From NCBI GenBank assembly GCA_015484905.1, contig WFUN01000026.1, positions 1-33,538 of the forward strand: a stretch of 33,538 nt of DNA, written 5' to 3'. This document shows positions 23,585 through 29,529 of the stretch, piece after piece. The notes below the pieces were generated by a model. That model searched no databases. It saw nothing but the letters and a program-made list of their open reading frames with translations, and was not told the origin of the DNA. Each line of letters starts with the position of its first letter. The stretch's first letter is position 1. The position numbers and the translations under genes are program-made. The DNA is from Hydrogenimonas sp. Its GTDB lineage: Bacteria; Campylobacterota; Campylobacteria; Campylobacterales; Hydrogenimonadaceae.

Positions 23585-24751
23585 TCAGTCAGATGAGAGA
23601 AGATATTCATATCTTCGGTCTGTCAGAGTCTTTAGAAAAGATACGATAGCATCCTCCTCTTCATCGCTCAAACCAAGATTGCCAAGCTCCTCTTTATTCA
23701 TCGTTTCCGGAATTTCAGGAGATCTCCATGGCTCGCCTGTGTCTGGGTTTAACGCGCCTGGGACATCTCTGGTATTGTAAAAATGGACAACGGTTTTAAG
23801 AGACTTGAATACCCCGTTATGCATATATGGTGCCGTGACTGCAACGTTTCTGAGAGTAGCAACTTTAAAGGCGCCATTAAGCGATGGGTTGGATGTAACT
23901 GCGCCCAGACCGAGATCTCTGTAGCCATCTATTTTGCTCAAAGGATTGTTTTGATCATAACGTACGGCCTCATTTACCGGAACTCCAAGATTGTCAAACG
24001 TACCATCTGTAAAGAGCGGCTTTTCGCCTTTTTGACCTATATGAGGATGACAAGCGGTACAGTTGCCTTTATCCTCTCTAACAAAGAGTTCAAGCCCCCA
24101 TTTTTCTACAGGCGTGAGTTCTATCTCTCCATTCATATAACGGTCGTATCTGGAGCTAAATGGTGCGAACAGCTCACTTTTTTCAAATGTAGAGATTGCG
24201 TCTGCAACAGCATCGAAAACTTCTTTATCGTCGTCAAAGAGATCGTCGCCATAGAGTGTCCTCAATTGCGATACATAATCATTATTTTCCTCTATGCGGG
24301 CAACAACTTCCGAAATAGTCTCAAGTCGCATTTCTACGGGACTCAGCAGGGGAGCTTTTGCCTGCTCTTTCAGATTTTTTGCGCGCCCGTCGTGAAATTG
24401 GCCTCCCAGCCATAAACCGCCCTCTGTCTCGTCGTCGAGATGAAATGGCGCAGAGAACATGGCATATAGAATCGTGGGAGTATTTCGGTCTCCGAGCGAT
24501 ACGTTGTCATCGCCTATGGAAACTGCACCAAAATCGTTTTGAGCCCTCTGTCTGTCGGGGTCGGTGAATGCAAAATCGGGATTGTGGCATGTTGCACAGG
24601 AGAGATTGCCGTTTTTCGAAAGACGTTTGTCATTGAAGAGTCTTTCTCCAAGTGCCACTTTTTTCGGATCAAGTCTGTTTTCAAAAGAGTCTCCACATCC
24701 GCTAAAAAGAAAAATCATACCCAATAGAGCTGTTGGAAAAAGGGTTTTCAT
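23585..24751 (-). CDS. lipoprotein-type diheme cytochrome c peroxidase/MauG family protein
   Basis: The 388-residue protein has two heme c motifs, CATCH (52-56) and CTACH (231-235), which is the two-domain layout of bacterial diheme peroxidases and MauG relatives. The C-terminal YMHNGVFKSLKTVVHFYNTRD is a family hallmark. The signal peptide ends in LFSGC with Cys19, so it appears to be a lipoprotein rather than a soluble periplasmic enzyme. I start at ATG 24751 because AAGGAT lies 8 bases upstream; the in-frame codons at 24757 and 24781 have no usable site. Peroxide reduction is the likely role, but MauG-like oxidation of another protein cannot be excluded. Confidence 0.9.
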   Translation of the reverse strand: MKTLFPTALLGMIFLFSGCGDSFENRLDPKKVALGERLFNDKRLSKNGNLSCATCHNPDFAFTDPDRQRAQNDFGAVSIGDDNVSLGDRNTPTILYAMFSAPFHLDDETEGGLWLGGQFHDGRAKNLKEQAKAPLLSPVEMRLETISEVVARIEENNDYVSQLRTLYGDDLFDDDKEVFDAVADAISTFEKSELFAPFSSRYDRYMNGEIELTPVEKWGLELFVREDKGNCTACHPHIGQKGEKPLFTDGTFDNLGVPVNEAVRYDQNNPLSKIDGYRDLGLGAVTSNPSLNGAFKVATLRNVAVTAPYMHNGVFKSLKTVVHFYNTRDVPGALNPDTGEPWRSPEIPETMNKEELGNLGLSDEEEDAIVSFLKTLTDRRYEYLLSSD

Positions 24752-24766
24752 GCTCATATCCTTATT

Positions 24767-24785
24767 GATAATCAAAATCATTATA
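24767..24785. promoter_or_regulatory. Fur-box-like operator over the peroxidase promoter
   Basis: The 19 bases GATAATCAAAATCATTATA match the classical Fur box at 16 of 19 positions. On the minus strand the same bases contain TATAAT (24785-24780), a -10 suitably placed for the gene starting at 24751. A repressor bound here would block RNA polymerase. Fur or the related PerR could be the protein. Confidence 0.6.
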
Positions 24786-24888: not shown

Positions 24889-26019
24889 TCAAAAAGATAT
24901 GAGGCAGGATAGAGCCAATGCAATTGAGGATGGATCTTCTACGGAGTTGCTTTTGAGTGAAATTAGAAAATCTTTGTAGTTTATATCGATACCTACGCTT
25001 TTAAAGCGCCTTTCATAAGATATAGTGGAGTAAAAAGAGTCTGTAAAGATGTATGAAAAGTTTAGATATGCAAACCATATGCCTTTTACGAAATCTCCTC
25101 CTGCGCTCATACCCGATTTTGCATCGTACCTGTATGAAGCCTCGACTCTATACTTGCCATAGAGTCTTTGAGTGTAGTTTACATACTTTTCTACTCCCGA
25201 AACCGTGGGATTGTAGACGACAAATCCGTTATCGTCATATTTTTTGTTGGAAGAGTTTATGTTTACGTAGCTGTAAGGCACTCTTTTCCACTTTATCTTT
25301 CCATACAGATCGTTGGCTATAAAACGAAAGGACAGATTTTTGACACGGTAGTCTATGGTTGCGTGGGTTGTATATCCATAACCTGTCGGCATTTGTACAT
25401 CAAGATTGTAGAGATAGTTTTTCGTATAGTGGTAGTCTGAGACTGCATTGAAGTCGTAATCTTTAGATGAGTTCGCAAGGGCGTTACCTTTAAGATACCC
25501 CTCTTGCATGCTTCTGCCTCGTAGTAGTTCGAAACCAAGGCCGAGCTTTAAAGAGCGATCTTTACTTTTTATTACATCGACTCTTTTTGCATATACGATG
25601 CCGTCTGTTTCAAATCCGTTTATGGAGATATCCAGATTATAGACTTTGCCTGGGATAAAGCCGGTATCGTTAAGCTGTTGCCAAGTCAGTAAAACTGTAT
25701 CTCGATTCGCTTTTATAAGCGACTGGTGACGATACGTATAACCGAAGTATCCCCATTTTTTAAAAGAAAAACCGATATCGGCCCTCATATCATCGAGAGC
25801 GAGATTGGTGCCGCTTCCGGGGTGAAAATCACCATGCCATCTGTTGAAAAGATCATTTAAAGATACGGGATCATCCGCTATGAAAGCTTTGGTATTTAGA
25901 GAAAACGATCTTTTTTTGTCAAGTGCAAGAGGGTCCACGATTGAAAATACTCCCGCTACGGCGCTCGATGAAAGCGCCATAGAGACGAGGAGTGCAGCAA
26001 AGAGTAAGTGTCTGCTCAA
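24889..26019 (-). CDS. putative outer-membrane beta-barrel protein
   Basis: The 376-residue protein starts with a signal peptide (about 1-22, ending SAVAG). After that it is rich in alternating aromatic/polar strands (WGYFGYTYRHQ, YGKYRVEASYRYD, IWFAYLNFSYIF) and ends LALSCLISF. A C-terminal Phe is the usual BAM recognition signal, so I infer an outer-membrane barrel. I recognise no family name. The start is TTG at 26019, four bases after the stop of the large lipoprotein gene, with no Shine-Dalgarno of its own, so translation is probably coupled. Confidence 0.65.
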   Translation of the reverse strand: MSRHLLFAALLVSMALSSSAVAGVFSIVDPLALDKKRSFSLNTKAFIADDPVSLNDLFNRWHGDFHPGSGTNLALDDMRADIGFSFKKWGYFGYTYRHQSLIKANRDTVLLTWQQLNDTGFIPGKVYNLDISINGFETDGIVYAKRVDVIKSKDRSLKLGLGFELLRGRSMQEGYLKGNALANSSKDYDFNAVSDYHYTKNYLYNLDVQMPTGYGYTTHATIDYRVKNLSFRFIANDLYGKIKWKRVPYSYVNINSSNKKYDDNGFVVYNPTVSGVEKYVNYTQRLYGKYRVEASYRYDAKSGMSAGGDFVKGIWFAYLNFSYIFTDSFYSTISYERRFKSVGIDINYKDFLISLKSNSVEDPSSIALALSCLISF

Positions 26020-26023
26020 AAGT

Positions 26024-28357
26024 CTAATATAGTGACTCGAACGAGCCGTCGATATATTTTATTCGATCTATGCCGGTACTGTTGTCCAGCGTTCCGATTA
26101 CACGGCCATCTTTGGTAAGCGGGGTCGTGGCATTGTAATCGATGTTTCCATTGTCTATGACTACGGTAAGAGCAAGACCGTTTCCTGTGGTGAGTGATAT
26201 GTTGCCGTCTCTTGTCGTATCGTTGTATCTTCCGTTGGCATTCACTGTCATAGCACCGTATACATATACGAAAGTGCTGTTGTTTTCATTTGTAGCAGGA
26301 TCGAATTCGTAAGCAAGGTTAAGACTCATATCGTCAAGTCCGGCACGTTTTAGTGTACCACTCAACGTAACTCTTGCGTGCGGCTCTTCGTTCGCGGTCA
26401 CGTTTATATCGGAGGCATTGAGAAGAGTGACACCCATTGTTCCTGCTACTTCCGTTTCGGTCTGTACATTTTTCAGACTTCCACTGAAGGTCATACTGCT
26501 TGGCAGATATCCGCTGTTTCCGATTGTGTAATTGTTTTCGTTGGTTGTCCAGAGCGAATCAATCTGAGGATTGCCGCCGTTTGAACAGGTTCCATTGAAC
26601 GTTACCGCCGCATTCGACAAATCGTTGTATGTGTACTCGCCGGCTATAGTTTCGTAGAAGTTTCCGCTATTGTCGGTAAAAATGGTATATACGGAATTGT
26701 CAATCATCGTTATATCAAAAGACTGATTGCTGTAATCGACATAAGGGTTGATCGGATCTGCCGGATTGCTGCAGCCTACATGCCCTCCTGCGTTTGTGAG
26801 ATGTTGTATGGAAAGTCCGCCTTTGTCAGCCATAGATTGGTTAAGCGTATATCCTACGCTCATGGTTCCGGTAGCGGTATAGTTTTGATCCAAAGCCCCG
26901 TTTAGGGTCAATTCGTTGAGTTTTACATAGTTGAGCGTGAATGGATCGGTCGTATTGGAGCTGTTGTAGTTGTATCCTATATCGGCTTTCACCCCTTTCA
27001 ATCCCGTCAGAGTGCCGTCTGCAGTGGAGAGATTGATATCGCTTACATTCAGACTCGCGCCATCGGATGTCTTCGTTAAAGAGATGTTGGCCTGAAGAGT
27101 CTGTAGATTTTGGGTAGATTCGAAAAGCTTGTTGGCAGGAAGTGTACCGCTGAAGCTCATTGAAAGAGATGTAAAACCATTTGGATCGATAGTGGTCGGA
27201 TCCGGAGCCGGAAGAGTGATCGTGCCGCTTCCTCTTTGATTAGCAGCTCCTCCGATTGTATCTGTAATGGTGTAGTTCCAGATAGAAGAGCCTGTGTCAG
27301 TTCTTGTAAGGTTTGCTTTCCTGGTATCTCCATTTGTCAGAGTTACAAAAGTGGTATTTACATCTATCAGGCTGTTTTGTATCCCATAATCTATGGCATC
27401 GGCCAGATTACCTATAACAGCAGCGGCAAGATCGCCGTTTAGCGTTACGTTTACAAATAGTGAATCCATAGCTTTGGCTTCCTTGTCGAAAAGGCCGCCG
27501 CTTTTGAAGAGATCGTCTCCTTGTGTTCTAAGATTCTGGAAAAAGGCTTTTGCCGAACCTACGTCATCCAAAGATCCGGCATTGTCAGGAACTTGTGGCG
27601 TATATGTCGTATTGTTTTCTGCAGCCTCCACAAAAGGTGTGGTGACATTGTTCTCTTTCATTTTCCTGGCAAGCGTGTCCGTTAAGTTGCTGTCGTCTCC
27701 AAGAACTCCGTCACTCGCATCTTCCGCTACAATTTCTACAAGCTCCTGGATAGTCAAATTGTTTTCTGTAGCGGCTGTGTGAAACGCCTCTATCACTTTG
27801 GCGTACAGACCTGTTGTAGGATCGGACGTAATGGGATCGGTTCCAAATATCTGTGCCGCAGCGACACGAGCCTGCTCCACTTTGCTCTTGTCGAGAGTCG
27901 CGTTAGGATCACCGCTTGTAGCCATCATGAACATTATGTGAGTGGAAGGAGCGATATTGACGGTGACCTCTTTGTCTTTTTCTACAGGCGCTGCAGAAAA
28001 GAGCTGCGTAGTTGTCGGGCAGGCTTTAGTCGTATTTGTATCTGGGAAAAAGAGGGAGGAGTTTTCGTCGCAGGTGACAGATACTATGGCTACACCTTCG
28101 AAGCCGTCGACGTCGATTTTGTATGTGCCGTTTTTATCGTCTGTTCTGCCGCTCCCTATTACCGTGCCGCCTGCACTGTTTGCACGGACTTCCACGACAC
28201 CGTTGAGTATCAGTTCGTCTACCGCCGTACCTGTGAGCGTAGTACCGGCTGCGGTAAGAGTGGAGGTACTGCTGCCGCCACCGCACCCACTCAATAGCAA
28301 AGAGCCTGCCAGTATCGCGCTGGCAATAGTACTGATTCGTCTGACTTGTGCATCCAT
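26024..28357 (-). CDS. large surface-type lipoprotein, unknown function
   Basis: The 777-residue protein has a lipoprotein signal peptide ending LLLSGC (Cys25) followed by a Gly/Ser linker. Residues about 40-95 (ELILNGVVEVRANSAGG to YKIDVDGFEGVAIVSV) resemble a carboxypeptidase-regulatory/Ig-like beta-sandwich. The remainder is beta-rich, very high in Asn, Thr, Asp and Gly, and repeatedly returns to LSGTL/LTLNG-like strands, as in extracellular adhesin-like or filament-like proteins. Nothing identifies an enzyme. It has AGGAGC 6 bases before the ATG and its own promoter. It is followed directly by the putative barrel gene, suggesting a pair that acts at the outer membrane. Confidence 0.7.
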   Translation of the reverse strand: MDAQVRRISTIASAILAGSLLLSGCGGGSSTSTLTAAGTTLTGTAVDELILNGVVEVRANSAGGTVIGSGRTDDKNGTYKIDVDGFEGVAIVSVTCDENSSLFFPDTNTTKACPTTTQLFSAAPVEKDKEVTVNIAPSTHIMFMMATSGDPNATLDKSKVEQARVAAAQIFGTDPITSDPTTGLYAKVIEAFHTAATENNLTIQELVEIVAEDASDGVLGDDSNLTDTLARKMKENNVTTPFVEAAENNTTYTPQVPDNAGSLDDVGSAKAFFQNLRTQGDDLFKSGGLFDKEAKAMDSLFVNVTLNGDLAAAVIGNLADAIDYGIQNSLIDVNTTFVTLTNGDTRKANLTRTDTGSSIWNYTITDTIGGAANQRGSGTITLPAPDPTTIDPNGFTSLSMSFSGTLPANKLFESTQNLQTLQANISLTKTSDGASLNVSDINLSTADGTLTGLKGVKADIGYNYNSSNTTDPFTLNYVKLNELTLNGALDQNYTATGTMSVGYTLNQSMADKGGLSIQHLTNAGGHVGCSNPADPINPYVDYSNQSFDITMIDNSVYTIFTDNSGNFYETIAGEYTYNDLSNAAVTFNGTCSNGGNPQIDSLWTTNENNYTIGNSGYLPSSMTFSGSLKNVQTETEVAGTMGVTLLNASDINVTANEEPHARVTLSGTLKRAGLDDMSLNLAYEFDPATNENNSTFVYVYGAMTVNANGRYNDTTRDGNISLTTGNGLALTVVIDNGNIDYNATTPLTKDGRVIGTLDNSTGIDRIKYIDGSFESLY

Positions 28358-28397
28358 TGTTCGCTCCTGTTGTAATTTGTATTATCGTAACATTCAT

Positions 28398-28629: not shown

Positions 28630-29529
28630 TTGCAGATAAAAGAGATCCAGCAGTTTTCAGAGATTCGCCCAAAAGCCAGGGCATATCTTTGCTACCTGCT
28701 TTCAAGAAACATTCCCAACAGAACGCCTGAAGTGACTCTCGATACGATCATCGCCGCTTTGAAGAAGATAAAAAAAGAGGTTAAAGAGATCGATACGCTT
28801 TATGTTCTCGATCCGAAAGGACGGCAGATAGCGAACAATGTAAGCAGAACTCCGGCTTTTCGCACCGGCGAGGGCGAAAACAGGGCGATGCGGGCCTACT
28901 ATTATCGGGCTGTCAGAGAGAAACGGTGTATTCTCACCGATCCATACCCTTCCAAAATAGGTGGCGCGCTCGTCGTTACCGCAGCCTATCCCGTATATAA
29001 CGACAAAGGACAGCTGCAATATGTAATCTGTGCCGACATACCTCTGGACAAACTTCTTTACATGGTGCATCCGGCATCGGCTGAGACGCTTTTTGGCAGA
29101 TTTACCAAAATAGGGTACGCTCTTTTTTCTCTGGCCCTGTTGGCTGTATCGGTATTCCTGTTTTTGAATGGAATCAAAAGTTTTTTGACATATGGATTCA
29201 ACCTGATCCATATAGATATCAAGGAGATGTTCGAGGCGACTATTCTTTTGACGCTCTCTTTGGCGATTTTCGATCTTGTCAAAGCGATATTCGAAGAAGA
29301 GGTACTTGGAGAGCACAAACGCGGCGAGCACGACGAGATACACAAGACTATGATCCGTTTTCTCGGTTCTATCATTATCGCCCTTGCCATAGAGGCGTTG
29401 ATGCTCGTATTCAAATTCGCTATAATCGACCCCGAAAAGCTAATATATGCCGTATATCTAATAGGTGGTGTAACGATGCTTCTGATCGGTCTTTCGTTCT
29501 ATCTTAGAAGTATTAGAAGAGGTGAATAG
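28630..29529 (+). CDS. PDC/Cache-type sensor with four C-terminal membrane segments
   Basis: Residues about 1-150 look like a PDC (Cache) ligand-binding domain: IDTLYVLDPKGRQIANN, AYYYRAVREKRCILTDPYPS and VVTAAYPVYNDKGQLQYVICADIPL. Four hydrophobic segments follow at about 157-180, 202-222, 240-262 and 267-290. No kinase, methyl-accepting, GGDEF or HAMP output domain is present. Usually a PDC domain is periplasmic and follows a first membrane helix, but here there is none, and an in-frame stop at 28597-28599 with no other start codon rules out a longer N-terminus. The TTG start has AAGGAT upstream. The stop overlaps the hisH GTG by one base. Confidence 0.7.
   Translation: MQIKEIQQFSEIRPKARAYLCYLLSRNIPNRTPEVTLDTIIAALKKIKKEVKEIDTLYVLDPKGRQIANNVSRTPAFRTGEGENRAMRAYYYRAVREKRCILTDPYPSKIGGALVVTAAYPVYNDKGQLQYVICADIPLDKLLYMVHPASAETLFGRFTKIGYALFSLALLAVSVFLFLNGIKSFLTYGFNLIHIDIKEMFEATILLTLSLAIFDLVKAIFEEEVLGEHKRGEHDEIHKTMIRFLGSIIIALAIEALMLVFKFAIIDPEKLIYAVYLIGGVTMLLIGLSFYLRSIRRGE

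Follow-up and report, generated by a model that had tools for sequence, protein, structure and literature searches.

A lipoprotein gene and its adjoining FadL-fold barrel gene in Campylobacterota: a possible surface-display unit linked to type II secretion

Introduction

How does a large lipoprotein cross the outer membrane, and what keeps it on the cell surface? The answer is settled for few systems, and the signals in cargo of the type II secretion system (T2SS) are hard to recognise. These questions are raised by two adjacent genes in a 33,538-nucleotide stretch of DNA from Hydrogenimonas sp. (Campylobacterota; GenBank assembly GCA_015484905.1, contig WFUN01000026.1, positions 1 to 33,538; the whole stretch is called the window below). 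One gene encodes a lipoprotein of 777 amino acids (aa), the other a 376-aa protein with a predicted outer-membrane barrel fold. The two genes co-occur strictly, the lipoprotein ends in a conserved tail and the pair is linked to T2SS genes. We propose, with a probability of about one half, that they form a two-gene surface-display unit, in which the lipoprotein would be carried by the T2SS and would dock with its tail on the FadL-fold barrel. Campylobacterota dominate at hydrothermal vents, where their surface proteins have to make contact with minerals and elemental sulfur. A near-invariant C-terminal tail and a dedicated barrel beside T2SS genes offer a testable handle on lipoprotein display and on T2SS signals.

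The gene pair and its distribution

The pair and its expression signals were located as follows.

26024..28357, minus strand: lipoprotein gene, 777 aa, with homologues in 21 of 100 relatives
24889..26019, minus strand: predicted outer-membrane barrel gene, FadL fold, 376 aa, TTG start (open reading frame and AlphaFold model)
28364..28368, minus strand: AGGAG ribosome-binding site of the lipoprotein gene (read from the sequence)
28283..28357, minus strand: lipoprotein signal peptide and lipobox, with Cys at residue 25 followed by GGGSS (read from the sequence)

By direct reading, AGGAG lies 6 bases ahead of the lipoprotein ATG, and the sequence upstream of the barrel TTG contains no AGGAG-type ribosome-binding motif. 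Only 4 bases separate the lipoprotein stop codon from this TTG. The lipobox (LLLSG-C25, residues 20–25) was identified by eye as a lipoprotein signal. The 376-aa protein has a signal peptide and a C-terminal Phe, which is found in 17 of 18 rows of the barrel alignment. The initial annotation had described both open reading frames, the 4-base spacing, the terminal Phe and the missing ribosome-binding site of the second gene in the same way. Its claim of tight coupling extends to other genomes: in 11 of 16 loci (the window and 15 others), the candidate barrel TTG lies within the last codons of the lipoprotein gene, giving a 17-base overlap, and in the other five (the window and its closest relatives) the gap is 3–10 bases. 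All barrel start codons in this comparison are candidate starts. The lipoprotein and the barrel were the sole genes recurring in all 16 loci.

The barrel search identified 18 homologous copies in 17 of the 100 relatives. Comparison with the coordinates of the lipoprotein search placed a lipoprotein match immediately upstream of each of the 18, on the same strand. When the genome_contigs collection was scanned for a single peptide pattern, 15 loci were obtained, from entries titled Hydrogenimonas, Sulfurimonas, Sulfurovum, Nautiliales, Helicobacteraceae or Campylobacterales metagenome-assembled genomes, and in each of them the lipoprotein lay upstream. Two further pairs (G243 and G379) came from a sample of 397 genomes of the phylum. 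After de-duplication there were 25 distinct pairs, all from Campylobacterota, and a lipoprotein gene stood directly upstream of the barrel gene in 25/25. The survey of side-by-side occurrence proposed in the initial annotation thus found the homologues adjoining at every barrel. In the 397 genomes, the 11 clear barrel matches and the 11 matches to the C-terminal domain of the lipoprotein fell in identical genomes. A search of 72,556 plasmids gave no barrel match. Distant relatives may exist outside Campylobacterota, since the scan relied on one peptide pattern.

Several matches were left out of these counts. In the phylum sample, partial barrel matches (E 2e-4 to 9e-4, in frames of ~1030 codons; G059, G072 and G275) and two marginal C-terminal-domain matches in one repeat protein (G411) were set aside, each being partial and in an unrelated long open reading frame. 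Also excluded from the pair count were matches at contig ends (G012; the N-part match in G038:C255), matches to the N-terminal part only (G081, G016, G003, G017:C33 and the second lipoprotein of G062) and two paralogues (G038:C55, G053:C181).

Predicted structures of both proteins

The AlphaFold model of the barrel protein, built with 16 sequences, had a predicted local distance difference test score (pLDDT) of 87.4 and a predicted template modelling score (pTM) of 0.83. DSSP assigned 16 long strands; kinked strands may be split in this count (the FadL family has 14 strands). The top match in VIA-align was TodX (Z 18.8, 6.1 Å, 296 residues), and the top 20 rows were all FadL, TodX, TbuX or CymD. 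They were followed by a chain of the Flavobacterium johnsoniae beta-barrel assembly machinery (BAM; 9n2d_B, Z 16.5) and one from a type IX secretion system entry (T9SS; 8gl6_F, 16.1), and further by 9hiv_F (BAM, Z 15.5) and 6h3i_F (T9SS, 15.4); these BAM and T9SS chains we take to be BamG and PorV. Foldseek TM-scores were low (0.23–0.46 among the better rows), and none of the 18 barrel members matched the FadL family profile (Toluene_X, PF03349) at E<=1. This profile was also silent in the window's own genome, while its control was found in three genomes. The likeness to FadL is therefore one of fold only. The PorP_SprF and SlipAM (Slam, PF04575) profiles matched none of the 18 members and nothing in the own genome, nor did the profile of the T9SS translocon SprA (TIGR04189) match in that genome; the controls for these three profiles were likewise silent there. 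We predict with confidence that the second protein is an outer-membrane barrel with the FadL/TodX fold. The initial annotation had suggested a barrel, and the model agrees with this rather than with a soluble periplasmic protein.

The best-conserved stretches of the barrel were residues 197–208, 241–252, 264–277 and 61–72. The C-terminal window showed no special conservation apart from the final Phe. Residues 241–277 may be the docking site.

25396..25431, minus strand: barrel residues 197–208 (HYTKNYLYNLDV), the most conserved patch
25189..25299, minus strand: barrel residues 241–277, a conserved stretch with a hairpin (conservation and model), candidate docking site

The lipoprotein model (pLDDT 82.3) had three parts and ended in the conserved tail.

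27611..28243, minus strand: N-terminal domain, residues 39–249, transthyretin-like beta sandwich with helices (VIA comparison with 9i0d)
27377..27571, minus strand: helical segment, residues 263–327 (AlphaFold model)
26027..27364, minus strand: extended amphipathic antiparallel beta domain, residues 332–777 (model, VIA and strand test)
26027..26062, minus strand: C-terminal tail IKYIDGSFESLY, the most conserved 12-residue window

Among homologues, the open frames ranged from 682 to 1124 codons. The best VIA match of the N-terminal domain was the non-heme domain of PgcA (9i0d; Z 12.7, 3.5 Å, 156 residues, 17% identity), and a search of the PDB sequences with this domain gave no match to PgcA. 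AlphaFold placed 29 strands of at least three residues between residues 332 and 777, in line with the beta-rich lipoprotein described in the initial annotation, and N, S and T together made up 34.6% of residues 330–777. The strands tended towards one hydrophobic face (z 4.8 vs shuffled sequences). The best VIA match of the beta domain was a segment of ApoB100 (Z 12.5, 6.9 Å, 226 residues). It also resembled porins and ushers (Z 9–10), so that the likeness to ApoB100 may be generic.

The last 12 residues, (V/I)KYxDGTFESL-x, ranked first of 766 windows in conservation, with 3.43 bits vs a median of 1.86. In addition to the pair, G038 and G053 each encode another lipoprotein (L121, L122) that ends in this tail and has no barrel gene beside it. 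Overlapping reading frames were rejected as the cause of the tail conservation, because the tail is kept without gene overlap and in these paralogues.

No family in Pfam, NCBIfam or the PDB sequences fitted either protein, and the initial annotation had likewise recognised neither family. All these searches, including Pfam searches with every row of three alignments, gave chance-level or low-complexity matches only, among them folB (E 6e-4, far under its cut-off) and MucBP (E 0.16). That a fold is missing from the VIA lists was not taken as evidence.

Link to type II secretion

Six of the 25 pairs were in or beside T2SS gene clusters (L053, L054, L055, L058, L061 and G062). In the first five, the pair occurred with gspG and gspF and, where the locus was long enough, also with gspC, gspD, gspE and other gsp-like genes. 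Pfam identified GspG, GspF, GspD with its N0 domain, GspE and a PDZ-domain GspC-like protein in L053. The order in G062 was gsp genes, a 1229-aa lipoprotein, the pair, and then gspG and pseudopilins. In the genome of the window, the gsp cluster lies on a different contig (C92).

The association was also seen at the genome level, with gspG scored by PF08334. This gene was present in 66 of the 100 relatives, including 16 of the 17 with the pair (Fisher P 0.005), and in 95 of the 397 phylum genomes, including 11/11 with the pair (Fisher P 9e-8). Counted by genus, the figures were 8/8 with the pair against 38/68 (P 0.007), which is the fairer figure since the genomes are related.

The N-terminal domain of the lipoprotein was more widespread than the pair. 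Its profile matched in 37 of the 100 relatives, and gspG was present in 34 of these vs 32 of the 63 others (P 1e-5). When genomes with the pair were removed, gspG was still found in 18 of 20 N-domain genomes vs 32/63 (P 0.001). In eight near-complete genomes, 6 of 15 N-domain genes lay <=25 kb from gspG (0.4 expected); three of these six were in the genus of the window, and in G054 none of five was near. One genome (G016) has a 1154-aa N-domain lipoprotein and no barrel in the place of the pair (C1; L135:4155-7619), between a Cache-domain gene, itself beside hisH and hisA, and gspC-gspD-gspE-gspF. This locus seems to exchange large lipoproteins. The gspG association and this barrel-less case indicate that the N-terminal domain marks T2SS-linked large lipoproteins, only some of which are partnered by a barrel.

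The 1229-aa lipoprotein of G062 (C1; L125:4129-7818), located before the pair inside the gsp cluster, carries the same N-terminal domain. Four genomes (G079, G054, G091 and G067) had 5 to 10 N-domain matches each, mostly weak. The N-domain lipoproteins of Campylobacterota are possibly a large family.

Neighbouring genes and further copies

A gene for a MauG-type di-haem cytochrome c peroxidase (23585–24781, same strand) lies ~100 bases downstream of the pair in the window. It was considered as a third partner and rejected, as it belonged to no cluster common to at least three of the 16 loci. At 28630–29529, a divergent gene encodes a membrane protein with a Cache-like sensor domain, in which no output domain was found. 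Within the genus, this gene is kept beside hisH/hisA and the pair.

One genome (G001) holds two copies of the pair, on C41 and C55 (L004, L018). Their barrels share 90% identity over residues 1–195 and 49% thereafter, which suggests recombination. In the complete genome G002, the lipoprotein homologue (C1:331818-334136) has one in-frame TGA and may be a pseudogene; the barrel frame is open. In G012 (C102:4473-6008), the lipoprotein match runs on the plus strand to residue 482 and on the minus strand from 482, near a contig end. This strand reversal is probably an assembly artefact.

Discussion

According to the surface-display reading, the lipoprotein would be made and then lipidated, and the T2SS would most likely carry it across the outer membrane. 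Outside the cell, its last dozen residues and its beta domain would bind the FadL-fold barrel, which may dock or stabilise it at the surface. Export by the T2SS, surface exposure and docking are inferred from parallels with known systems. The initial annotation had supposed that the barrel anchors, exports or partners the lipoprotein. Partnership is well supported by the pairing, the identical distribution and the conserved tail, and export by the barrel is less likely than by the linked T2SS. A more specific version is tentative, and we hold it with less confidence than the general reading: the T2SS of Campylobacterota could pass the lipoprotein on to a dedicated FadL-fold barrel for docking, with the C-terminal (V/I)KYxDGTFESL sequence as the tag, and this route could be an independently reached counterpart of the PorP/PorV docking step of the T9SS. 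The function of the displayed protein can be guessed at: it may mediate attachment to minerals, sulfur or other cells, or capture hydrophobic compounds. When Sulfurovum indicum grows on elemental sulfur, some of its gsp genes are described as rising (PMC10045233), which hints weakly at a function in surface attachment.

Several observations weigh against surface display by way of the T2SS. Nineteen of the 25 pairs have no T2SS genes beside them (one, G031, is ~20 kb from gspG), and one genome with the pair (G014, 76% complete) shows no gspG. Campylobacterota with a T2SS may share lifestyle and ancestry, which could account for part of the association. The pTM of the lipoprotein model was 0.59. 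Evolutionary distances of the barrel correlated with those of the C-terminal (r 0.82) and N-terminal (r 0.79) parts of the lipoprotein no better than shared ancestry predicts, and are uninformative.

The closest solved structures of the barrel are hydrocarbon and fatty-acid channels of the FadL/TodX/TbuX/CymD type, and this speaks for a different reading, in which the barrel would take up hydrophobic compounds (hydrocarbons, fatty acids or perhaps elemental sulfur) and the lipoprotein would act as its receptor at the surface or in the periplasm, much as in SusC/SusD. The amphipathic, ApoB100-like beta domain would fit such a receptor, although porins and ushers score nearly as high on it. Docking roles are also known for FadL-fold barrels, and uptake alone explains neither the T2SS linkage nor the barrel-less paralogues. 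We regard an uptake pair as the strongest of the alternatives and still rather unlikely. If the lipoprotein were instead a periplasmic plug or assembly factor of the barrel, as LptE is for LptD, nothing would be surface-exposed. Strict pairing and weak LptD-like matches of the beta domain (Z 8–9) agree with this, but the lipoprotein is large for such a role, and its N-terminal domain is common to other large lipoproteins near the T2SS and resembles that of PgcA, a surface lipoprotein; we consider it improbable.

Strict pairing and a strictly conserved tail would also be expected of a Slam-like pair, in which the barrel itself would move the lipoprotein through the outer membrane and the tail would act as the export signal. 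Such an arrangement is improbable: with 376 aa the barrel protein is too small to include a periplasmic tetratricopeptide repeat domain, it has no Pfam match, no lipoprotein translocon is among its best structural matches, and the T2SS linkage would be left unexplained. The gene order at some loci could point to yet another role, with the pair helping the secreton, for example as an outer-membrane assembly or stabilising factor, rather than being cargo: the barrel gene directly precedes gspG in L053, L054, L058 and G062, and the pair ends the gsp run in L055/G028. Yet most pairs are unlinked, and of the 100 relatives 17 carry the pair whereas 66 carry gspG, so it is dispensable for the T2SS; we give this accessory role little credence.

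Comparison with known systems

The nearest parallels to the proposed docking are found in Bacteroidota. SprF and PorP of the T9SS bind cargo with a type B C-terminal domain, and sprB and sprF are described as adjacent and co-expressed (PMC9143113). The present pair is similar in that a cognate cargo with a conserved C-terminal end is encoded beside a FadL-type barrel (25/25), and differs in its lipoprotein cargo, its Campylobacterota host, its T2SS linkage and the lack of a PorP_SprF sequence match. It would work like the PorP/SprF docking pairs without being a member, as sequence, phylum and secretion machine differ. BamG is reported as a FadL-homologous barrel whose extracellular loops bind the surface lipoprotein BamH, with bamG2-bamH2 a putative operon (PMC12578637). 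Here, too, a FadL-type barrel is paired with a lipoprotein, and chains of the BAM complex are among its best structural matches. According to that report, BamG binds BamA and seems to be essential. The present pair, by contrast, occurs sporadically and has no sequence match to a known family.

That lipoproteins can be T2SS cargo is illustrated by the pullulanase PulA, which is carried to the surface (PMC7857515). Our lipoprotein shares with PulA the lipoprotein signal and a T2SS in the genome; PulA is described there without a dedicated barrel partner. In Geobacter sulfurreducens, the lipoprotein PgcA has a predicted surface location and has been found outside the cell, and its export is discussed in T2SS terms; in Shewanella, it is reported to be unrecognised by the host T2SS and retained in the periplasm (PMC5732950, PMC11520253). 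The present lipoprotein may be of this extracellular type, with a modelled N-terminal domain similar to that of PgcA. In PgcA there are three haem domains, whereas here a large beta domain follows the N-terminal domain. With the FadL/TodX channels, the barrel shares the fold (Z up to 18.8), and it differs from them in having no sequence similarity and a fixed lipoprotein partner.

The initial annotation had singled out the pair as a candidate for an undescribed system. An open-licence literature search found no paper on this pair or on any FadL-fold partner of the T2SS, which agrees with that claim, while the principle of holding surface proteins by a FadL-fold barrel is not new. It is known from Bacteroidota; what appears to be new is the pair seen in some deep-sea vent bacteria.

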